In this document: in pieces, positions 1 through 19,000 of the stretch
How positions within the stretch are numbered: position 1 is the stretch's first letter
Layout of the letters: each line of letters starts with the position of its first letter
The notes under the pieces: generated by a model
Databases searched by the model: none
The model's input: only the letters and a program-made list of their open reading frames with translations
What the model was told of the DNA's origin: nothing
From: Yaniella sp.
Lineage (GTDB): Bacteria; Actinomycetota; Actinomycetes; Actinomycetales; Micrococcaceae
Assembly (NCBI RefSeq): GCF_030453185.1
Contig: NZ_JAKDKW010000006.1
Location: 1-54,300 of the forward strand
Reading direction: 5' to 3'
DNA length: 54,300 nucleotides
Translations under genes and position numbers: made by a program

Positions 1-2
1 AC

Positions 3-42
3 AATGGCCGGATTCTTATCGCTTTAATGGCCGACTTCTTAT
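3..42. repeat. Two-copy direct repeat at the left edge, downstream of the FtsK-like gene
   Basis: A 17-base unit at 3-19 recurs at 26-42 with 15 of 17 bases identical (AATGGCCG, two variable bases, TTCTTAT), a 23-base period. The array may continue beyond the window. The nine bases ATGGCCGAC from the second copy occur inverted at 1995-2003, between the integrase and the FtsK-like gene. Actinomycete conjugative elements carry short repeats (clt) recognised by the TraB pump, and these repeats lie just 3' of such a gene. That role is inference. Confidence 0.45.
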
Positions 43-152
43 TGACAGAACACAGCCAGCCGAAGGTCACCGGCAGTATTCAACATCCCGGAGCCACCGG
101 TACCCGGCAGCTCCGCGTGTATACCAACGGGGTAGTCAACTTTGCAGGCACA

Positions 153-1889
153 TTATTTTCTGTCACCAGGGCCATGGCCAGCCGCACCCAGCAGGGCATC
201 ATGTTGTGCCTGTGCTCGTGATCCCGGTGCGGAGTTGAATACCGGTGCAGGTTCAGCCGCTGAGGCGACATCATTCGGAGTGGGGTCCATCGGGCTGGAT
301 AGGTCGATTTCCGCGTCTTCACCAAAAACGTCTTCGACCTGTGCTCGGGTTGGACGGATGCTGTCGTTTCGTGGCACGCCCAGGCGATCAAGCCACTGCC
401 CATATTCGGAGGCCGGTCGGAAATACCCCTTGAAGACGGCGGGGTTGGAGCCTTGCGGTTCGATGGCACCGACACCTCGGGCGGCAGCAGGGTCTTCGCG
501 CAGATAGTCAGGGACTAGTGGAACACCCTCGGGGTCTGAGAAAATCAGACGACGGTTGCCTTCGGTGGGGTTGGCACCCATGAGCACCTTGTGACCGAGG
601 TTGGAGCGGAGTTTGGTTTTCACACCGGTGTCGGTGGAACCGACCTGGGTGGATAGCAGCAGGAAGATGCCGGCAAAGCGCATTTCTGCTGCGATGTCGT
701 TGATTCCTTTTTCTAAGATGTCCTTGGCGAAGTTCACCGCTTCAGCTTCGGCTTTCATGTCTTGCTGGCGCTGTGGGGAGTCTTTGGTGGCTTTTGGCAC
801 CGGGTCGCGAGCAAAAAGCACCGTGACTTCATCGATGACTAGCAGCAGCGGGTCTACCTGCTGACCGGGTGGTAGCTCAGCCCAGCCCTGCACTCCGTTT
901 TTGGCAATGATCATGGACCGTTTGGCTTTTTCTTTTTCGATAATTTCGGTCACGGTGGCGGCTTCAAAGATGTTTTCACAGCCCCACCCGCCAGGGATAA
1001 CAAAGTCTTTACACCAGGCGAAGTCCACGGCTTTATCTGGGGTGTCAATGATGGCTAACTGTGCACCGCGTGCCAAGAATTGTGCGATGTAGGCGTTGAT
1101 GACCGTGGACTTACCAGATTGGGCGATACCACCGATTTGAACGTGCTGGCTTGCCGATAAGTCGATGTTTTGGATTTCATAGTCCTCACCGGGATCAGGC
1201 AATGCGATGCCGATAGGGATTTTGAAGTGCTCCTTATTGCTTGGATCAAACCGCACTGCTTTTTTGGGTAGCGGCGTGGAATACATCGGTTCAAAGCTCA
1301 TGAGCTCAGCCGGGATAATCGAGCCGGTACGTTTGCGGGTGTCAGTGGTGAAATACCAGCCGGGTTCACCGATGATGGATTCAGTAACTTCTTTGAGGGC
1401 CTTGTCGTTGGTGGATGGCCGGTAGGTGACGGGCAGGGTGAACTCGAAGCCTCCGTCGTCTTCCCGTTGAACGACTTGAATATCCCAGGGGTAGCATTTC
1501 AACGCGGTAGCCAATGCGTCCCTGGCTAGGATGACCTCTTGGCTGAGCTTTGACAAGGTAGCTTGCCGACGGTGTGGCTCAAATAGGGTCATCACATAGC
1601 CGGGGTAGGTGTCAGCCAGACTTATAGCCAGGCGCTTGCCGTCGCGGTCGGTCACATCCGATGGCAAGGGTACTTCAATGGCTTTATTGCCCATGTGCGA
1701 GACGATTGCGTCCCGGTTTTCGCGCCGAAAAAAGGCTTTGCCAGTAGTGGCCTCATACCGGTCGAGTTCAAAGCCCTTGCCATACTCTTCATCAAGTTTG
1801 GCGATGACTTTTTTGACGTGCTGAGGTTTCTCCAGATCAAATTTGTGGCCGACGTTGACGGTGATCCGGTCGATACCTACTGCGGACAT
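153..1889 (-). CDS. FtsK/SpoIIIE-type DNA translocase of the integrated element
   Basis: This is a P-loop DNA pump of the FtsK/HerA family, probably the protein that moves double-stranded element DNA between mycelia or cells, as TraB/TraSA does in actinomycetes. Walker A (GIAQSGKST) lies near residues 255-264 and Walker B (LLLVIDEV) near 350, followed by an alanine/glutamate-rich helical stretch and a sensor-like LLLSTQVGS segment. The N-terminal ~230 residues have no clear membrane segment, unlike cell-division FtsK, which supports a plasmid/element protein. Residues after ~500 are a Pro/Ala-rich tail. ATG at 1889 is preferred over the upstream GTG at 1895 because an AGAGGTGAG Shine-Dalgarno lies directly before it; this gives 578 residues. 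A hairpin (1913-1929) sits in the leader. Confidence 0.75.
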   Translation of the reverse strand: MSAVGIDRITVNVGHKFDLEKPQHVKKVIAKLDEEYGKGFELDRYEATTGKAFFRRENRDAIVSHMGNKAIEVPLPSDVTDRDGKRLAISLADTYPGYVMTLFEPHRRQATLSKLSQEVILARDALATALKCYPWDIQVVQREDDGGFEFTLPVTYRPSTNDKALKEVTESIIGEPGWYFTTDTRKRTGSIIPAELMSFEPMYSTPLPKKAVRFDPSNKEHFKIPIGIALPDPGEDYEIQNIDLSASQHVQIGGIAQSGKSTVINAYIAQFLARGAQLAIIDTPDKAVDFAWCKDFVIPGGWGCENIFEAATVTEIIEKEKAKRSMIIAKNGVQGWAELPPGQQVDPLLLVIDEVTVLFARDPVPKATKDSPQRQQDMKAEAEAVNFAKDILEKGINDIAAEMRFAGIFLLLSTQVGSTDTGVKTKLRSNLGHKVLMGANPTEGNRRLIFSDPEGVPLVPDYLREDPAAARGVGAIEPQGSNPAVFKGYFRPASEYGQWLDRLGVPRNDSIRPTRAQVEDVFGEDAEIDLSSPMDPTPNDVASAAEPAPVFNSAPGSRAQAQHDALLGAAGHGPGDRK

Positions 1890-2030
1890 GCTCACCTCTG
1901 ATGTGTACTGCGTCGGGGGCGATCCCCGATCAATGCGGTTCAGAGGTTAAACATTCGGGCGTTTTAGTTCTCAGTCTTCCCGTACCGAAGAAACGTCGGC
2001 CATCGAACTGGTGCACTTAGTGCTGTGGCA

Positions 2031-3254
2031 TCAACCAGACTTGCGTTCATCACCTCGTGTGCTTTTGCCCAGGCGTTCTAATGAGGCAGCAAAGTCGATG
2101 ACTTTCCCATCGTCTTGATCCCAGTAGTGACGCCGTGTGACATCCGGGGTGGAGTGCCCACCTTGGGCTGAGGCGGCTTCGATGCCGTGCAGATCGGCGA
2201 TTTCTGTCAGCACGGTCTTGCGCGAGATGTGGAATCCCAGACGTTCAGGGGCATCAAGTCCTAGCTCTTCGCGTGCCAGGGCAAAAGCTCGTTCAGCAGT
2301 GCCATACAAGCTTCTGACATGGTAAGGGTTGCCTTTGCCATTGCGAAAGACTAACCCTGTGGTGTCGCCATCTTGCTGGCGTCGAGACAGAATGTCGATC
2401 CCAAATTGTGGCAGTGTCAGTTTCTTGGTCTTATTACCTTTGGGCAACCCCAGTTCATTGGTTTTCTTTCCTCGGGTCAATACGGCATCTTCGATGTAGA
2501 CCACTGCTGGTTCGCCAGGTGCTTGGGGCAGGGCTATGTTGTGCCAGTGCAAACCAAGTATTTCTGAGATACGACAGCCTGTGGCCAACGTCATATCGTA
2601 AATATCCAAGATATTCTGATTGGCATTGGGCACATGATCCATCCAGTAGCGAAGTGATTGCCGGATGACGTCGATCTGCTCATCATCCCAGGCTTCGGGT
2701 TGTGGGGCGCGGTAGCCAATTTGCGGGATACTGTGGGCAATGTTGTGACGGATATACCCCTCTTGGATGGCGAAGTCATAAAACTTGACCAAAAGGCTTC
2801 GACACTCGTGTGCGGTGCCCAACAGACTGCCATCAGGTTTGACGATGCTTTGCAACGCACGATGAAGAGAGCCAGCGGTGGTCTCTTCAAATGTCATCTC
2901 CCCGATCCGTTCACTGAGGTGATTGTTATACCTGCTTTCAGTATTGAACACAGTTCTCGGCAATGGCCTATTTTTAGATCTGTCGTTTTTCATATTCTCG
3001 AAGTATTCAGCGGCCACCCTGTCAAAAGTCTTGACCGTGGATGCTTCTTCTCGGGTCACGATCTTGACGGATAGTGCGTGCCACTTATTCTTCAGCGCGT
3101 TAGTTGCAGCACCCTTGGTTGCAGCCCGAGCAGTCAGTGTGCGTCGCTTACCCCAAGAGTCCCGATACAGACACGACGCTAACCATTTCTTGTCTTCAAT
3201 TTTGCGGGTGGTGATTTCTCCGCGTTCACCAATTCGTAACCTTTGTCTGGCCAT
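2031..3254 (-). CDS. Tyrosine recombinase (integrase) of the element
   Basis: Site-specific recombinase that would integrate and excise the element. The C-terminal catalytic domain shows the family residues: Arg in TGCRISEIL, the HxxR box as HISRK, a second His in GGHSTPDVTRR, and the nucleophilic Tyr in RRHYWD. The N-terminal half contains an AP2-like DNA-binding region (KKWLASCLYRDSWGKRR) and a SAM-like core-binding domain around FDRVAAEYFENM. About 407 residues is normal for actinomycete element integrases. ATG at 3254 is chosen because GAGGAG and GGGGAA precede it; a TTG at 3272 is also in frame. It is the outermost gene, next to the repeat-rich attachment region. No excisionase gene is visible beside it. 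Confidence 0.88.
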   Translation of the reverse strand: MARQRLRIGERGEITTRKIEDKKWLASCLYRDSWGKRRTLTARAATKGAATNALKNKWHALSVKIVTREEASTVKTFDRVAAEYFENMKNDRSKNRPLPRTVFNTESRYNNHLSERIGEMTFEETTAGSLHRALQSIVKPDGSLLGTAHECRSLLVKFYDFAIQEGYIRHNIAHSIPQIGYRAPQPEAWDDEQIDVIRQSLRYWMDHVPNANQNILDIYDMTLATGCRISEILGLHWHNIALPQAPGEPAVVYIEDAVLTRGKKTNELGLPKGNKTKKLTLPQFGIDILSRRQQDGDTTGLVFRNGKGNPYHVRSLYGTAERAFALAREELGLDAPERLGFHISRKTVLTEIADLHGIEAASAQGGHSTPDVTRRHYWDQDDGKVIDFAASLERLGKSTRGDERKSG

Positions 3255-3343
3255 TTCCCCTGAACTCCTCAAATAGTCGAATAGCTGTGTCCGATGGAAG
3301 AGTGTCCGGGGGATTTGTAGGGTTCAAATAAAAATGCAGTTTC

Positions 3344-3429
3344 AAAAGTGCTCGTACGGTCAACGTTCACTTTTCAGAGTCGAATTTGCAGCACTACCTC
3401 ATGCCGATTTTCTGTGCTGAAAAGTGCTC
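3344..3429. repeat. Direct and inverted decamers upstream of the integrase
   Basis: AAAAGTGCTC occurs at 3344-3353 and 3420-3429 in the same orientation. CACTTTTCAG at 3368-3377 is the exact reverse complement of 3417-3426. Repeated decamers within 170 bases of an integrase start are typical of integrase arm-binding sites or of an autoregulatory operator. Which of these applies cannot be told from sequence. Confidence 0.4.
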
Positions 3430-3439
3430 TGAAAACACA

Positions 3440-3479
3440 AGATCGGCCTGTCCATACTTCCGCATGAACAAGCCGATCT
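3440..3479 (-). terminator. Hairpin, probable end of the paf operon transcript
   Basis: AGATCGGCCTGT at 3440-3451 pairs with ACAAGCCGATCT at 3468-3479 (11 of 12 pairs, 16-base loop). Read on the minus strand it is followed by a T-rich TGTGTTTTC, and it lies 150 bases after the FKBP stop, as expected for a terminator. It could instead be part of the integrase site. Confidence 0.45.
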
Positions 3480-3565
3480 GAGGGTGTTCTTGCCCGTTTT
3501 CAGGGCGGTAAAAGCAGCCGTTTTTAGGCCGTAAACATCACTGTTTTGCGACCCAGAAACCCCCA

Positions 3566-3594
3566 ATGTCATATTTCCGTTTGCCAAATGACAT
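3566..3594. repeat. Inverted repeat ATGTCAT / ATGACAT
   Basis: Seven-base arms at 3566-3572 and 3588-3594 flank a 15-base spacer, 36 bases from the FKBP stop codon. Short imperfect arms around a spacer of this kind fit a tyrosine-recombinase core site, but the match is short and could be chance. Confidence 0.3.
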
Positions 3595-3629
3595 GTGGTC
3601 TCCTTGGAACGGATAGTTGGGTTTTGGAT

Positions 3630-4610
3630 TTATTCAGTTGCTTCGGGATTTTCTGCCGGCATCGGGTCTGCAGAATGCAGGATGTCGACGACAAAGACTA
3701 GAGTTTCATCTGCCAGTTCGTGGCCTTCAGATTCACCGTACGCCAGGTCTGGTGGGATCGACATGACGACCTGGGAACCGACCTTTTGGCCCTCGAGTCC
3801 CTCTTGCCAACCGGAGATGAGCTGTTGTAGTTCAAATTGTGCAGGCGCGCCAGTGTTGTCTTCGCCCCAAGACGAGTCGAATTCTTCGCCGTCGGACCAG
3901 GAAATACCACGGTAATGGATGGTCACATAAGACTCGGCTTGTACCTCTGCGCCGTCACCCTGTTTCAGCACGTCTACCGTCAGGTCTTCGGGCGGGGTGC
4001 CTTCGGGAGTCTCGATGCTTGGTGCCTGGGTGTCTTCATCAAGGCTTACTGACGGCAGTGACTCATCCAGCTCGGCAGCGTCGACTTCTTCGCCGGTGGC
4101 ATGGGTCTGCACAACATCTTCAAGAGAAATAATGTTCAGGTAGGCCGGGGTACCTTCACCCAGCGTATTTGCCGGCAAGTAGAACGCAATATCAGAGCCG
4201 ATTGGCGCACCGGTCATGGCTTCGTGTGCCTGAGGATTTGTTGAAGCAAATTCCTCGTTGAGTTGCAGAGTTGATCCACCCAGATCAAAGTCGTGACTGA
4301 GTACTTGTTGACTGTCAACATCCACGTTGGCGGTCAAGATTTGCATCAAGTCGCCTTCTTCAACGGGTTCGCCGTCCCCTTCATTCATAACCCACGCTGC
4401 AGGCTGGTCGAGTTCTAGCTCGCCGTCAATTTCAACCTCTTCGGTTTCTCCGGAGATGTCGTAGGAAATTTCGACATCGGGATCTTCGACCTGCTCCGTG
4501 GTCTCCTGGTTTTCCTCGTCATCAGATCCGCAGGCGGTCAAGGCCAGTGCTGCGGTGAGGACAATCCCCGCTGTGGTTGCGAGTTTGGAGCGGCTGTATT
4601 TCGTTGACAT
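3630..4610 (-). CDS. FKBP-type peptidyl-prolyl isomerase lipoprotein
   Basis: A secreted, membrane-anchored prolyl isomerase. Starting at ATG 4610, behind AAGGA, gives a signal peptide with basic start (MSTKYSRSK), hydrophobic core and the lipobox LTAC, so the mature protein begins at Cys with the acidic linker GSDDEENQE. The C-terminal ~110 residues are an FKBP domain (VTIHYRGISWSDGEEFDSS, LISGWQEGLEGQKVGS, PPDLAYGE). The middle ~150 residues resemble a degenerate second FKBP-like or unknown domain. The gene lies 57 bases after pafA on the same strand; an FKBP gene next to pafA is a common actinobacterial arrangement. The longer in-frame start upstream would bury the signal peptide and is rejected. 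Confidence 0.88.
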   Translation of the reverse strand: MSTKYSRSKLATTAGIVLTAALALTACGSDDEENQETTEQVEDPDVEISYDISGETEEVEIDGELELDQPAAWVMNEGDGEPVEEGDLMQILTANVDVDSQQVLSHDFDLGGSTLQLNEEFASTNPQAHEAMTGAPIGSDIAFYLPANTLGEGTPAYLNIISLEDVVQTHATGEEVDAAELDESLPSVSLDEDTQAPSIETPEGTPPEDLTVDVLKQGDGAEVQAESYVTIHYRGISWSDGEEFDSSWGEDNTGAPAQFELQQLISGWQEGLEGQKVGSQVVMSIPPDLAYGESEGHELADETLVFVVDILHSADPMPAENPEATE

Positions 4611-4667
4611 GTGGTTCCTTGTGGTTGGTTGTTGAGCCGTCCATAAGTTTAGCGGGATCAACAACGG

Positions 4668-6080
4668 TTAGAGGTCAGCTGAAGCGACTTTAGCAAACAG
4701 CTCATCGACGATTGAAATGTCGGTTTCGAATGCATCTCGAACATAGAGGGTCTGCATTGGGTGATGGTTGAGTTTCATATGCGTCCAGTCCATGGAGTAG
4801 TCCATGCCTAGCGCTCGTGCGCTGTGGATAAAACGGTGTCGCAACAGGGCCCGTGTCGTAGCCGGCGGGTTCTCGCGTGCTGCTTCAACCTTTGCGTCAG
4901 TTAGGACACGTGCAGCTGCTCCCCTGGCTTCTAATAGATTGAAGAGGCCGCGCTGCGGATCGATGTCATGGTACGACATATCCAGTTGGACCAGGCGCGC
5001 TGCTTCCCAATTCAGGTTGTTCTTCTGAGCATATGCGTTGAAGAATTTATATTTGATGGCCCAATCGATTTCTGTGTCGATTGCTGAATAGTTTTGGCTT
5101 CGAATCCCCTCGAGGGTACGTTCCCAGAGGCTCATAATCTGACCAATGTGCCCGTGGTGTTCCCCATTTTTTTCTAGGAAATCCTGTGCCATGGTCAGGT
5201 AATATTCTTGAATTTCTAGGGCGGTCATTGTGCGGCCGCCAACCAGTTCGAGCGGTGTGTTGCCAGTGAGATCGTGTGAGACACTGCGAATGGCTCGAAC
5301 GGGGTGAGCCAGTTGCAGGTTCGAGAGCGGTTTGCCGGCTTCGATGATTCGCAACAAAAGATCGGTGGCACCAAAACGTAGCAGTTGCGTGGTTTCTGAC
5401 ATGTTGGAATCGCCGACGATGACGTGCAGGCGTCGAAATTTTGAAGAGTCAGCGTGGGGTTCGTCCCGGGTATTGATCATGGGACGGGCTCGTGTGGAAG
5501 ACGACGAAATGGCTTCGTACATGTAATCGGCCCGCTGTGAGAACGCAAAATGTGGTTCACTCCGGGTCGGGAACTGATCGACCAGCGGAAGGGCGCTTGG
5601 GTCTTGGATCACCACACCACTACCGCTGATAAGCTGGCGGGTCACCATGAATGGTAATAGCGCTTCGGCCAGACGGCGGTACTGAGTGGTCCGCTCAATC
5701 ATGTAGTTTTCGTGACTGCCATATGAGTTGCCCAACGAATCGGCATTGTTGCGGTACAGGAACACCTGCCCGTCGAAGCCGTCGTTGGCCATGGCTTGCT
5801 GAGCTTGGGCCACTAACCGGTGCATGATGGCATCACCGGCAGCGTCACTGGCGATCAGTTCGTCCAGCAGGGTGGTTTCAGCGGTTGCATATTCCGGGTG
5901 AGAACCAACATCTAAATAGAGGCGAGAGCCATTGGAGATGAACACGTTTGATGAGTTGCCCCAGTCCACTACCGGTTTGAACATGTAGCGTGCTACTTCG
6001 TCCGGGGCCAAGGGGCGTTTGTTGGGGTGCACGGTGTGTACACCGTATTCGGTTTCCAGCCCCATGATACGGGTATCCAA
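4668..6080 (-). CDS. pafA: Pup--protein ligase PafA
   Basis: Ligates the C-terminal glutamate of Pup to lysines of target proteins with ATP. It belongs to the carboxylate-amine ligase family related to glutamine synthetase. The N-terminal GLETEYGVH carries the metal-binding Glu9, and SRLYLDVGSHPEYATAE carries the catalytic-base Asp at residue 57. YRNNADSLGNSYGSHENYM and the SREPHF-type nucleotide region follow, and the length of 470 residues is normal. The start is a TTG behind AGGAG. It begins 29 bases after pup, leaving no room for prcB and prcA, which usually sit between the two. Confidence 0.96.
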   Translation of the reverse strand: MDTRIMGLETEYGVHTVHPNKRPLAPDEVARYMFKPVVDWGNSSNVFISNGSRLYLDVGSHPEYATAETTLLDELIASDAAGDAIMHRLVAQAQQAMANDGFDGQVFLYRNNADSLGNSYGSHENYMIERTTQYRRLAEALLPFMVTRQLISGSGVVIQDPSALPLVDQFPTRSEPHFAFSQRADYMYEAISSSSTRARPMINTRDEPHADSSKFRRLHVIVGDSNMSETTQLLRFGATDLLLRIIEAGKPLSNLQLAHPVRAIRSVSHDLTGNTPLELVGGRTMTALEIQEYYLTMAQDFLEKNGEHHGHIGQIMSLWERTLEGIRSQNYSAIDTEIDWAIKYKFFNAYAQKNNLNWEAARLVQLDMSYHDIDPQRGLFNLLEARGAAARVLTDAKVEAARENPPATTRALLRHRFIHSARALGMDYSMDWTHMKLNHHPMQTLYVRDAFETDISIVDELFAKVASADL

Positions 6081-6109
6081 GTCCAGCTCCTAGAATATTC
6101 GGGGTTTAG

Positions 6110-6316
6110 TTACTGGCCGCCTTTTTGTACAAAGCCCTGGACAAATTCTTCAGCGTTGACTTCGAGCACGTCATCAATTTCGTCTAACAGCGAGTCCAAA
6201 TCAGAAGTCTGAGCACTTGCGGATCCCGGCGAAGGCGTGCCCTCGGGTAATGGGTCAGGAATATGCTGGTCTTCATCGCGTTGTTGGTGTGATGGGCGTT
6301 GTTGTCCTTGTGCCAA
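6110..6316 (-). CDS. pup: Prokaryotic ubiquitin-like protein Pup
   Basis: The small disordered protein tag of the pupylation pathway, 68 residues. The N-terminal half is Gln/His/Pro-rich and disordered. Residues ~38-60 (DLDSLLDEIDDVLEVNAEEFV) are the Mpa-binding coiled-coil helix, and the chain ends in GGQ. The final Gln means it must be deamidated by Dop to GGE before PafA can use it. The start is TTG behind AAGGAG, eight bases away. It is flanked by dop (21 bases upstream) and pafA (29 bases downstream). Confidence 0.97.
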   Translation of the reverse strand: MAQGQQRPSHQQRDEDQHIPDPLPEGTPSPGSASAQTSDLDSLLDEIDDVLEVNAEEFVQGFVQKGGQ

Positions 6317-6337
6317 AGTGAGCTCCTTAATGCCGGG

Positions 6338-8023
6338 TTAGTTGCGCCCTGTGACTCGATACGGTTGCAGCTGTTTTAAGAGTTGCGCTAGTTCTGCGTG
6401 GTTTGCTGGTGTATCGTCTAGCGTCAATTGTGGCTTGCCTGCCGCTAACATGCCGTTAATATGGTCCGCTGTTGCCGCAAGAGGTTCCAATAAATGGAAA
6501 CGTTGCAGCGGACCTTGACGGAAAGGACGCACCAGTACTGACTCCCAGGATACTCCCGCCAAGTGTGCACCGAAACGATCAATGAGGCGCCCGCGAGTCC
6601 AGGCTCTGGTCGTCGTTGGCGGCATGGACATCGCCTGGTGGATTTGCTCGCCACTGACGACGGTACGCATCGCTCCGCGTGACAAGAGCGTGTAGTACAA
6701 GCCTTTATCTTCACGTAGATCGGCCCACTGCAGATCAAGCATGGCTAACTTGGCGTCCGACCAATCCAATTTGTGCCGCTTGCGCATCCCGCTGAGTAGT
6801 TGATATTTTGCAATCCAATCAAGACGGTCAGCTAACTTAGCCGGATCCTGTTCGAGAAGATCTAGGACTTCAGCCCAGGCATCGACGACGTCGACAGTCT
6901 GTCTATCGTCAATGCCGTAGCGGTGGAGATAGTCTTGGGCGGCTTGTTGATATATGCGTTGGATTTCGATGGGGGTCATCCATCCGCGACCATTGACCAA
7001 TACCTGGGTTTGCAGGGATGGGTCGTGTGAGATATCTTTGAGCGCCTGAACCGGTTCGGCCAATTCCACCATCGGCAATTCACCCAGTTCGATCAACGAC
7101 AAGACCAGCGATGTCATTCCAACTCGCAACCAGGTGGAGTACTGAGACAGGTTAGCGTCGCCGATAATCACGTGCAGTCGGCGGTACGACTCAGGAGTAG
7201 CGTGTGGCTCGTCACGGGTGTTGATAATGGGACGTCGGATCGTGGTTTCTAAACCGACTTCTTCTTCAAAGAAATCTGCCCGCTGGGATATTTGGAATCC
7301 TGCGTGTTCGTTGAGGCTCCCGATCCCTACTCGGCCAGCGCCGGTGATAATCTGCCGGGTAGCGAAAAATCCAATGAGATGGTCTGATAGTTCGTCGAAA
7401 TCCAAATCGCGAGCTACCAGGTAGTTCTCGTGTGCCCCGTAGGAAACCGATTTAGAATCCGTATTATTTTTATACAAGATTAGCTCAGCAGCGCCGTTAG
7501 CATCCGCTATATGGTTGGCGGCTTGTTGAGCGATTCGGTCCCCCGCCTGGTCCCAGATCACGGCGTCGATTGGATTGGTGGTCTCAGGAGAGGAATATTC
7601 GGGGTGTGCGTGGTCGACATAAAAGCGTGCACCATTTGGCAGGATCAGGTTTACCAGCAGGTGGATTTCCTGACCGTCCTCGTTGGCTAATACTTGATCC
7701 GTGAGTTGTGAAGGATGCGCAATCGAACGGGGCATTTGCCAGCCTCGAGCGTCAGAGAGCGGCGACTCTTCGTTATAGTCCCATTCGGTACTGGCCACGT
7801 TCGTTCCTTCAGCCGCGAGTTTGTGACCATACGCATTGATGAGCTCGAGCGACATCACCGAGTGGGATGCCTGCGGATGTGCAGGTGCGTGGATGCCAAA
7901 TTCGGTTTCGAGTCCGACGACTCGGTGCACTCCGTAGCCGACCGTGGCACGGTCTGCCGGAAATTTCTTGGCTAAAGCTGTAGGAATCAACGACACGTGT
8001 GTCATCGAAGAATCACTGTCCAT
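6338..8023 (-). CDS. dop: Deamidase/depupylase of Pup, Dop
   Basis: Deamidates the C-terminal Gln of Pup and removes Pup from substrates; ATP acts as a cofactor. It is homologous to PafA: VVGLETEFGIHAPAH holds the metal-binding Glu, NGARFYVDHAHPEYSSPE the catalytic Asp, and YKNNTDSKSVSYGAHENYL and INTRDEPHA follow. The insertion after the first motif (HPQASHSVMSLEL...) is the Dop loop that distinguishes it from PafA. The start is uncertain: ATG 8023 (overlapping the mpa stop by 11 bases), ATG 8005 and TTG 8044 are all possible and none has a strong Shine-Dalgarno, suggesting translational coupling to mpa. About 561 residues is somewhat longer than the usual ~500. Confidence 0.93.
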   Translation of the reverse strand: MDSDSSMTHVSLIPTALAKKFPADRATVGYGVHRVVGLETEFGIHAPAHPQASHSVMSLELINAYGHKLAAEGTNVASTEWDYNEESPLSDARGWQMPRSIAHPSQLTDQVLANEDGQEIHLLVNLILPNGARFYVDHAHPEYSSPETTNPIDAVIWDQAGDRIAQQAANHIADANGAAELILYKNNTDSKSVSYGAHENYLVARDLDFDELSDHLIGFFATRQIITGAGRVGIGSLNEHAGFQISQRADFFEEEVGLETTIRRPIINTRDEPHATPESYRRLHVIIGDANLSQYSTWLRVGMTSLVLSLIELGELPMVELAEPVQALKDISHDPSLQTQVLVNGRGWMTPIEIQRIYQQAAQDYLHRYGIDDRQTVDVVDAWAEVLDLLEQDPAKLADRLDWIAKYQLLSGMRKRHKLDWSDAKLAMLDLQWADLREDKGLYYTLLSRGAMRTVVSGEQIHQAMSMPPTTTRAWTRGRLIDRFGAHLAGVSWESVLVRPFRQGPLQRFHLLEPLAATADHINGMLAAGKPQLTLDDTPANHAELAQLLKQLQPYRVTGRN

Positions 8024-9722
8024 TCTGCAGTACACGCAAGGCAATTGCCTGAGCGCCTCGGTGGCCTGCTAGTCGTAACCACTGTTGCGGTGCTGACGTA
8101 TCGGGTAGGTCCAGTTGCTGCGATTTTTCCTCACTGCTGGCCTGGAGCAAGTGGCTTGTCTTGAGTCCTTTGGCCGCATTGGCATCAGTGGCGCGGGCAT
8201 CGAGATAGTCTTTAATAGCGAGACGTTTTGCACGGTCCACGATATTGGCGATCGTGGCACCAGAGACGAAGTCAGCGAAGTACAGCACGACAACCGCGCC
8301 GTCTTGGTACGTTACTTCCACGAATTGATTGTCGCTGTGTCGAGCATAAAGTGATTCCACAGCCTGATTGATCATGTGCTCGACGGCGGCTTGTGACCCG
8401 CCGTGTTGCATTACTTCGTTTGGATGCACGGGGATTTCTGAGGTCAGATAGATCCCAAAGATTTCATGGGCGCCGGTGGCGTCTGGGCGGTCCACCCGGA
8501 TTTTTACATCCAAGCGGCCGGGACGCAGAATAGCCGGATCAATCATATCTTCACGGTTGGAGGCGCCGATGACGATCACATTCTGGAGCGATTCGACGCC
8601 GTCAATTTCGGCCAGTAACTGCGGAACAATGGTGGTTTCAACATCTGACGAAGTGCCGGATCCACGGGTACGAAACAGGGATTCCATTTCGTCAAAGAAA
8701 ATTACTACCGGATACCCCTCAGAAGCCATTTCACGTGCACGAGCAAATATGGTGCGTATGTGGCGCTCGGTCTCGCCCACATATTTATTGAGGAGTTCGG
8801 GACCTTTGATATTCAAGAAATACGAGTGAGCGACTCCGTCAACGCGCCCGCTCAATGATTGGGCAACAGCTTTGGCGATGAGCGTTTTACCGGTACCAGG
8901 TGGCCCGTAGAGCAAGATGCCTTTTGGCGGTTGGAGATGATGCTCGCGATAAAGCTCGGGATAGAGGAACGGTAATTCTACAGAATCGCGTATTTGGCCT
9001 ATTTGTTTTCCGAGTCCGCCGATGTCGTCGAAAGTCGCGTCGGGAACTTCTTCCAACATCACGTCTTGTACATCGGAGACATCCAGCACCTGGGTGGCAA
9101 AGCCCGAACGATAGTCCACCAGCACCGCATCCCCTACACGCAACCGTACGTCGCACAGTGCTGCAGCTCGGTTCACGACATGCTCGTCGTCACTTCGTCC
9201 CACGACAAGGATCCGGTTATCGTCAAAGAGCTCTTTGATGCGTCCAGTGTCGCCCGTGGGGTTCGGGCTGAGGACAGCCACGATGGATAATGCTTCATCG
9301 AGCAGGACATCGCTGCCGGCTGTTACGGCTTCAGCACTGAGCATCGGTGAGATATGAGTGCGCATCTTGCGCCCCGAATACAAGATATCCGCAGCGGGGC
9401 GCGCCACGGATGGCAGCTCAATGGATGGGTCATGTTCTCGCCCGGCGTGTACTTCGAGTACGGTAGCGAAGCTAAACGGCGGCTGCGCATTATCAGCGAT
9501 TGAGTCCTTAAGATCTGTGATCTCTTCGCGTGTGAGATTCAGGATCTCGACCATACGACGATTATTGCGTGACGCGGTATCGAGGTCTGCTCGCAGTTGC
9601 CGATTATTCTCAACCAGAGTGGCTAGCCTGCGCCGGGTTGAGTCATATTTCTGCTGCAGATTTGTGTGCACTTCGGCAGAGATCGACTCTCGTGGTGTTT
9701 CGATCGGCGCATTGTCAGACAA
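8013..9722 (-). CDS. mpa: Proteasome-associated AAA+ ATPase Mpa/ARC
   Basis: Hexameric ring ATPase that binds pupylated proteins through its N-terminal coiled coil and unfolds them. Residues ~18-75 are coiled coil, followed by tandem OB folds (~80-220) and one AAA domain with Walker A GPPGTGKT (273-280) and Walker B VIFFDEME (~340-347), plus Arg-rich sensor LRPGRLDVKI. The start is TTG behind GGAGGT. The protein ends ...RVLQNGQ. Proteasome-activating orthologues end in GQYL, so the docking tyrosine is missing exactly at the end. With prcBA absent from this locus, the ATPase probably works without a 20S core, as in Corynebacterium. Confidence 0.94.
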   Translation of the reverse strand: MSDNAPIETPRESISAEVHTNLQQKYDSTRRRLATLVENNRQLRADLDTASRNNRRMVEILNLTREEITDLKDSIADNAQPPFSFATVLEVHAGREHDPSIELPSVARPAADILYSGRKMRTHISPMLSAEAVTAGSDVLLDEALSIVAVLSPNPTGDTGRIKELFDDNRILVVGRSDDEHVVNRAAALCDVRLRVGDAVLVDYRSGFATQVLDVSDVQDVMLEEVPDATFDDIGGLGKQIGQIRDSVELPFLYPELYREHHLQPPKGILLYGPPGTGKTLIAKAVAQSLSGRVDGVAHSYFLNIKGPELLNKYVGETERHIRTIFARAREMASEGYPVVIFFDEMESLFRTRGSGTSSDVETTIVPQLLAEIDGVESLQNVIVIGASNREDMIDPAILRPGRLDVKIRVDRPDATGAHEIFGIYLTSEIPVHPNEVMQHGGSQAAVEHMINQAVESLYARHSDNQFVEVTYQDGAVVVLYFADFVSGATIANIVDRAKRLAIKDYLDARATDANAAKGLKTSHLLQASSEEKSQQLDLPDTSAPQQWLRLAGHRGAQAIALRVLQNGQ

Positions 9723-18898: not shown

Positions 18899-18984
18899 GC
18901 GCGGGTGGCGGAATTGGTAGACGCGCAGCGTTGAGGTCGCTGTGAGCTTTATCGCTCGTGGGGGTTCAAGTCCCCCTCCGCGCA
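18899..18984 (+). tRNA. tRNA-Leu (anticodon GAG)
   Basis: An 86-base cloverleaf: acceptor GCGCGGG pairing with TCCGCGC (one G-U), D-arm with GGTAGA, anticodon stem CAGCG/CGCTG holding a TT-GAG-GT loop, a long class II variable arm (TGAGC/GCTC), and T-arm GGGGGTTCAAGTCCCCC. The long variable arm and the GAG anticodon make it a leucine tRNA reading CTC and CTT. The CCA end is not encoded. A terminator hairpin follows within 20 bases. Confidence 0.97.
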
Positions 18985-19000
18985 CGTTGTACGATTGAGA

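Follow-up and report, generated by a model that had tools for sequence, protein, structure and literature searches.

SpyCI of Streptococcus pyogenes is described as a phage-like island with demonstrated switching; it inserts at the 5' end of a gene (mutL) in a DNA-repair operon, parts the downstream genes from the upstream promoter and switches mutL by excision, and in one decayed SpyCI mutL is reported to be rescued by a promoter inside the integrase pseudogene (PMC3430984). The megaplasmid pMP7017 of Bifidobacterium breve is reported to be conjugative, with a repeated promoter motif of its own that overlaps the canonical -10 box (PMC10832533). The Micrococcales megaplasmids, namely pACHL01 of Pseudarthrobacter chlorophenolicus, pYJN5-1 and those of Arthrobacter caoxuetaonis and Curtobacterium, are free circles of 375-608 kb. 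Further known kinds of element are the cis-mobilizable element (CIME) and the tandem accretion of integrative and conjugative elements (ICEs). The stretch described here, called the window, is the whole of contig NZ_JAKDKW010000006.1 (54,300 bp; host contig C23), one of 156 contigs in a 2.58-Mb draft genome of the genus Enteractinococcus (Micrococcaceae). Positions 1-3583 of the window are the left end of an integrated element, termed A, which continues past the left end of the contig and is the first of two related elements, A then B, integrated in tandem at one site. The best explanation, with a probability of about 0.87, is that these two integrase-bearing elements at the start of the FKBP2 gene have split the Pup operon, and that they belong to a family related to megaplasmids and integrative in habit. 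Like SpyCI, the elements at this site insert at a gene start and would part the genes behind it from the upstream promoter; unlike SpyCI, they are large and plasmid-like.

The insertion target is the start codon of FKBP2. This gene opens with AAGGAGACCAC-ATGTCATTTGG, and these 22 bases are found exactly both at attL in the window (Table 1), where the repeat begins 24 bp beyond the FKBP1 stop codon, and at C31:19647-19668 on host contig C31 (attR), where they adjoin FKBP2-pafBC-tatAC. Empty-site relatives read straight across this core, and an exact 22-base match at the empty-site joint is far beyond chance. The preliminary description of the window had proposed an integrated element behind the pafA-FKBP pair, with an integrase and a DNA translocase as its first genes, and had suggested a search for the second attachment site; int1, the FtsK gene, the att repeats and the empty-site relatives bear the proposal out, and the second site is the copy on C31. 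Its placing of the insertion outside a tRNA also stands, insertion into a tRNA being rejected because the sole tRNA of the window (ARAGORN) lies far away at 18899-18985. The placing near the 3' end of FKBP1 is given up in favour of the FKBP2 start, on the evidence of the 22-bp repeat and the empty sites. The reading as a single element fails as well, since C31 holds a second integrase gene, int2 (69% identical to int1), and a third att site. This site, att_mid, has its ATG at C31:48607, shows six mismatches to the 22-mer, retains ATGTCATTTGG-TAAACG and is flanked by two small HTH genes on one side and by int2 on the other. The same target is occupied in the Enteractinococcus genome KG10 (attL C12:40727, attR C1:86296), and the integrase at that site is 67% identical.

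FKBP2 is intact at attR because the core holds its ribosome-binding site, start codon and first codons. A stub of 18 FKBP2 codons is present at three int-side sites (host attL, att_mid and KG10 attL), of which att_mid and KG10 attL are close relatives and hence not independent. The first FKBP2 codons are nearly invariant across seven empty sites, which may be what makes them a good target. The integrase would recombine attP with this conserved start, rebuilding FKBP2 whole at attR and leaving the stub at attL, and the two related elements would have integrated one after the other at the same attachment site. The likely start codon of int1 is at 3254, and int1 and int2 have in common R234, H348, R351, H373 and Y383, which we take to be the catalytic residues. 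As in an ICE, there is a site-specific integrase, a direct repeat at either end and an empty site.

The other half of the operon is found on C31 in the order FKBP2, fused pafBC, tatA, tatC. A WYL search detected a single gene, of 666 aa, that encodes a PafC HTH along with two WYL domains. The suggestion that the element had parted pafBC from the Pup operon is thereby supported; the gene order expected from other actinobacteria, with pafB, pafC and tatA/tatC after the FKBP gene, holds in the relatives, except that pafB and pafC are fused and not separate. Such a fused gene is also reported from Arthrobacter aurescens (PMC6789036). The run pafA-FKBP1-FKBP2-pafBC-tatA-tatC is uninterrupted in six of the eight other Enteractinococcus loci (tatC is cut by the locus end in some of them). 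The two exceptions are L042, which stops inside pafBC at a contig end, and KG10 (L039), which bears its own insertion; an empty-site relative without pafBC behind the FKBP gene, named beforehand as the case that would speak against the proposal, was not seen among these loci. An FKBP search of the host genome matched only FKBP1, in the window, and FKBP2, on C31. The two genes are adjacent in 46 of 49 family genomes and split in two, the host and KG10; the remaining genome has a single match. When the host flanks were joined, one alignment ran through the joint in all six empty-site relatives tested (L042 left out), at 70.5-85.2% identity; the alignments span 2,065-2,296 columns and contain 2 to 56 gap positions. 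The operon halves do lie on different contigs of a 156-contig draft, as they would had a chromosomal rearrangement or misassembly split the operon and the integrase genes been coincidental. That explanation is hardly credible, however, since both contigs carry the same 22-bp repeat precisely where the empty sites are joined, int and an excisionase-like gene lie on opposite sides of the joint, and KG10 is arranged alike.

Read in the direction of the operon, the window contributes FKBP1, attL, int1 and FtsK up to the contig end. The part of element A on C31 comprises the start of dnaE, a transglycosylase gene, a lipoprotein-like gene, two HTH genes and att_mid. Element B follows (C31:19668-48607, about 29 kb), with int2, a truncated FtsK gene, an AraC-type regulator, siderophore/haem uptake genes and, towards FKBP2, a transglycosylase gene, a lipoprotein-like gene, an HTH gene and attR; FKBP2 comes next. 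The small HTH_17 proteins that adjoin attR and att_mid are excisionase-like by type, and each of the two elements carries a tyrosine integrase at one end and such a putative excisionase gene at the other. The dnaE gene of element A is interrupted: the end of C31 holds 75 aa of it, 71% identical to KG10 DnaE residues 85-159, and host contig C25 the remainder. At the break, the ends of C31 and C25 correspond to either end of a single insertion sequence of E. helveticum.

The ends of element B are close to those of the KG10 element (int 89%, FtsK 97% over 277 aa, HTH 95%, transglycosylase 94% identity). Since it combines KG10-type ends with a truncated FtsK gene and iron-uptake cargo, element B looks like a deletion derivative of a KG10-type element, to judge from its sequence; the integrase of element A is the diverged one. 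In keeping both att sites and the ends of a full element while having lost most of the core, element B resembles a CIME, a likeness that includes the neighbouring second element. The cargo at C31:25176-45809 (L036 10177 to L045 11809) consists of about 20 kb of haem/siderophore uptake genes, with FecCD permeases, binding proteins, HtaA proteins, haem oxygenase and a siderophore-interacting protein. Of eight genus genomes, only the three that carry the element have a counterpart of hmuT at 77% identity or more, and three others have matches at 24-29%. Given this distribution, the haem genes are less likely to be ordinary chromosome. That they ride on an element is shown for the host genome only; in KG10 hmuT is on contig C78, without the element motif, and in E. 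helveticum it lies to the left of int.

The full-size relatives show what such an element can carry. In KG10 the element occupies C12:40727-59539 and C1:86296-187901, together 120 kb. KG10 contigs C34 (40.6 kb) and C23 (41.4 kb) most likely also belong to it, for a total of up to about 202 kb, because they bear the motif described below and over large parts have a gene order like E. helveticum C8:23383-57285, which lies between the C12-like and C1-like parts of C8. The element of E. helveticum UASWS1574 sits at another place than the FKBP2 site. The KG10 element encodes functions of replication and nucleotide metabolism (DnaE with an intein, NAD ligase, thymidylate synthase, dUTPase, dNMP kinase), of repair and DNA processing (UmuC-like and S24 proteins, YqaJ exonuclease, 8-oxoguanine glycosylase, helicase), a C5 methylase, type I restriction genes, NERD, transglycosylase, and rIIA- and rIIB-like proteins. 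Candidate transfer genes are those for two FtsK-like proteins, a coupling-protein-like pair and an AAA_10 (VirB4-type) protein of 1,495 aa with a homing-endonuclease insert; the coupling-protein match in E. helveticum is below the Pfam cut-off. The host genome itself has shown, of the conjugation and backbone genes, only int, FtsK, dnaE and transglycosylase. The integrase is found at E ≤ 1e-60 in 5 of 295 family genomes, host included. Eight genus genomes were searched for dnaE, and a third copy turned up in three, which are also the three with the integrase. A related element occurs in another Micrococcaceae genus (genome G319), on the motif-bearing contigs C90 and C71 (L101, L102), with identities of 57% for dnaE, 50% for FtsK, 52% for UmuC and 33% for the integrase.

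The Micrococcales megaplasmids share a backbone with the elements of KG10 and E. helveticum, made up of the FtsK pair, the coupling-protein-like pair, NERD and dnaE. The window FtsK is 69-70% identical to the int-adjoining genes of KG10 and E. helveticum; it scores 18.1 bits (E 0.002) against Pfam FtsK_SpoIIIE, below the Pfam cut-off of 24, and matches no family at E 0.001. By tblastn it finds 15 plasmid records of 149-608 kb at 27-47% identity, from Paenarthrobacter, Pseudarthrobacter, Arthrobacter, Curtobacterium, Glaciihabitans and Bifidobacterium; in the Micrococcales megaplasmids named above its counterpart is 45-47% identical. The 1,119-aa FtsK matches 132 plasmid records, the best from Paenarthrobacter, Pseudarthrobacter and Arthrobacter (39-41% over 74%), and DnaE matches 135, the best being Micrococcales plasmids (38.6-42.4% over 34-35% of the KG10 protein). 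The coupling-protein-like gene and its partner match megaplasmids at 28-36%. The megaplasmids are free circles, in contrast to the family here, which is integrated with int, HTH gene and att at the FKBP2 start. More distantly, the free plasmid pMP7017 has adjacent big and small FtsK-like proteins that are alike, at 25% over 474 aa and 31% over 406 aa. The family is most likely an integrative, probably conjugative, form of the Micrococcales megaplasmid lineage, a reading drawn from its replicative polymerase, FtsK-like, coupling-protein-like and VirB4-like genes, several of which are common to megaplasmids.

A decayed prophage or phage satellite would equally have an integrase and an excisionase-like gene at an att site. 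Phage-type genes of DNA metabolism (thymidylate synthase, dUTPase, dNMP kinase, YqaJ/RecE exonuclease) are present, some PHROGs matches are named endolysin, lytic tail protein, virion structural protein, rIIA and rIIB, and a scan of IMG/VR with int matched one stretch encoding a relative, albeit with no locus given. Against this, no terminase, portal or capsid is among the 50 of 102 PHROGs families listed (the scan covered 106 of the 124 KG10 ORFs of at least 85 aa, with KG10 contigs C23 and C34 left out), and the IMG/VR scan with the window FtsK found no match. Matches to the big FtsK cover 18-23% of its length in 12 phages versus 74% in Micrococcaceae plasmids, and KG10 has the VirB4-like AAA_10 protein and the coupling-protein-like pair. 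A phage origin is thus very improbable, and a plasmid-like element is preferred.

Several observations weigh against the tandem, megaplasmid-related reading. The chain from C31 to the window is unassembled; the join of the C31 end to the C25 start rests on the insertion sequence of E. helveticum, and no contig links C25 to the window's contig. C25 (22,590 bp) has no element motif, which leaves the remaining extent of element A uncertain. KG10 is a metagenome-assembled genome with its element spread over four contigs. Family scans of the element proteins recognised no relaxase among the matches listed, and MOB-suite grades the 15 plasmids with a window-FtsK match as non-mobilizable.

In the host, FKBP2, pafBC and tatAC lie at least 36 kb from the region upstream of FKBP1 (29 kb of element B, 4.4 + 3.6 kb of element A), and in KG10 the same separation is 120 kb or more. 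FKBP2, pafBC, tatA and tatC are, on this gene arrangement, apparently cut off from any promoter upstream of FKBP1, where gene spacing would place the operon promoter. The insertion might be a reversible switch for pafBC/tatAC in the manner of SpyCI, excision restoring these genes and integration silencing or re-timing them. The geometry is that described for SpyCI, a gene start inside a DNA-repair operon (PMC3430984). The conserved residues of int are retained, excisionase-type HTH genes are present, a scan of 401 bp at attR detected no sigma-70-like promoter (shuffles: mean 0.3) and no exact element motif at attR is directed at FKBP2. The tandem elements and the interrupted dnaE nevertheless suggest decay, and a promoter of another kind may exist at attR; a working switch is considered unlikely. 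The tandem insertion points to the FKBP2 start in the Pup operon as a chromosomal site used by large integrative elements, and provides natural strains with pafBC uncoupled from pafA.

The element motif is the 9-mer CCGGACACT, with 81 copies in 241,837 bp of element versus about 1.8 expected at equal base use, and none in 75,149 bp of flanking chromosome versus 0.6 expected. The element count comprises the window end, element B, the part of A on C31, the KG10 C12 and C1 parts and E. helveticum C8; E. helveticum C6 and host C25 were left out, their element limits not being defined. An ATG stands exactly 17 nt from the first base of the motif in 47 of the 81 copies; with up to one mismatch, offset 17 accounts for 65, while none of the other offsets between 12 and 23 exceeds 7. 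As other copies precede genes that have a ribosome-binding site in a longer leader, CCGGACACT would suit a promoter better than a translation signal. The pattern CCGGACACT-N8-ATG occurs 45 times in KG10, 19 in E. helveticum, 3 in the host and not at all in six other Enteractinococcus genomes (one of them 71% complete). The 45 copies of KG10 are confined to four contigs (C1 22, C23 13, C34 6, C12 4). Three genomes of another genus have 10, 6 and 5 copies, and in G319 the motif precedes the homologs of dnaE and the big FtsK. A like geometry with another sequence, CCGCACACA-N8-ATG, was found on megaplasmids by an ATG-anchored word scan. Stretches of pACHL01 (74 kb), pYJN5-1 (42.5 kb) and the A. 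caoxuetaonis plasmid (31 kb) have 12, 13 and 6 copies, against 7, 8 and 5 for the next unrelated words and 4, 4 and 3 in a GTA-anchored scan. The integrated elements are tied to the free megaplasmids by the common backbone and by this start-associated motif of like geometry. The motif of pMP7017, by its description, is of other sequence.

A general role of the motif is called into question by other counts. Nothing clear at fixed spacing was seen in the Glaciihabitans, Curtobacterium and pMP7017 stretches, the A. caoxuetaonis signal barely exceeds its next unrelated word, and the integrase-bearing E. helveticum C6 has 2 copies in 83,094 bp. The 12-base pattern is matched at least once in 102 of 295 family genomes, mostly 1 to 3 times (a reversed-pattern control reaches 2), and in genome G195 the motif cluster is about 460 kb from the related integrase. 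A literature search on CCGGACACT returned no title on bacterial mobile elements among the matches listed, and one pairing Enteractinococcus with integrative and conjugative returned no work. Of five Sigma70_r2 matches in KG10, a single one falls on a contig with the motif, at KG10 C23:20296-20442. It scores 24.4 bits in the search of the genome and 21.3 bits when the ORF itself is scanned (cut-off 24), and its ORF, which opens with the motif, is a weak candidate for the reader of the motif. In E. helveticum one of seven matches, a weak one, is on C6 and none on C8, and in G319 none of nine is on C71 or C90. A search for a T7-type RNA polymerase gave no match; its control was likewise silent, so that the result is uninformative.

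A common N-terminal tag is present in 18 ORFs, 13 of 230 in the KG10 stretches and 5 of 88 in E. helveticum C8. It comprises about 30 residues with a consensus like MTxPLTSAQxAQQxNRTxDGKYTTKSHSEAD, the bodies of the proteins being different, and all 18 tagged genes start behind an exact motif. Tagged ORFs include an RNase_T exonuclease and the weak Sigma70_r2 protein; four of the tagged proteins scanned match no Pfam family. The tag pattern has no match in the 16 remaining stretches, among them the chromosomal part of the window, although ORFs of genomes G195 and G305 open similarly. One might guess that the tag is a targeting or export signal. A wider idea is that the elements use a private code, in which a promoter 17 nt from leaderless starts and the tag go together with a takeover of pafBC/Tat at FKBP2. 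The promoter would perhaps be CCGGACACT-N8-ATG in integrated and CCGCACACA-N8-ATG in free forms, read by a sigma-like protein of the element, and the tag might direct proteins to the recipient along with the DNA. This idea is on balance unlikely.

Table 1. Features of the window and of related element stretches
Feature	Position	Strand	Evidence
FtsK/SpoIIIE-like translocase of element A, 580 aa	153..1895	(-)	weak Pfam FtsK_SpoIIIE
Tyrosine integrase int1 of element A	2031..3272	(-)	Pfam Phage_integrase E 3.6e-9, Phage_int_M
CCGGACACT motif copy upstream of int1	3301..3309	(-)	motif search
Orphan FKBP2 start, 18 codons, closed by element-derived TGA	3538..3594	(-)	read from sequence
attL, 22-bp core AAGGAGACCACATGTCATTTGG, ribosome-binding site and start codon of FKBP2	3584..3605	(-)	exact C31 copy
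FKBP1, chromosomal, left flank	3630..4664	(-)	Pfam FKBP_C
pafA (Pup ligase)	4668..6080	(-)	Pfam Pup_ligase
Second Pup_ligase-family gene, presumably dop by gene order	6338..8044	(-)	Pfam Pup_ligase
mpa/ARC-like proteasomal ATPase gene	8013..9722	(-)	Pfam AAA + Prot_ATP_ID_OB
LAGLIDADG-type inserts, KG10	L056:3606-9965; L110:7052-11539; L111:11560-15060		
Tagged ORFs in L054, the L056-L067 set, L108-L111 and L093-L095, example	L109:495-1721		
Motif-bearing stretches	L036, L045, L054, L056, L063-L067, L081, L093-L095, L108-L111		

LAGLIDADG intein or homing-endonuclease-like inserts interrupt three proteins of the KG10 element, DnaE, the VirB4-type ATPase and the helicase. A UmuC-like gene and a small neighbour, presumably UmuD-like, are located at L063:14700-16566 and are 77% and 85% identical between the KG10 and E. 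helveticum elements; the pair belongs to an element family that inserts beside a DNA-damage regulator gene. The KG10 element also has a SecA-type gene and a sortase gene adjoining large surface-protein-like ORFs (L065:8378-15231, L054:5459-9870), and AvrD-domain and APH-family matches are listed for the set. On the chromosomal side, window positions 4668-9722 hold a Pup operon without proteasome core genes, and no Proteasome-family match was found in any of the three Enteractinococcus genomes searched. The gap between the dop-like gene and pafA is 257 bp and may hold pup.

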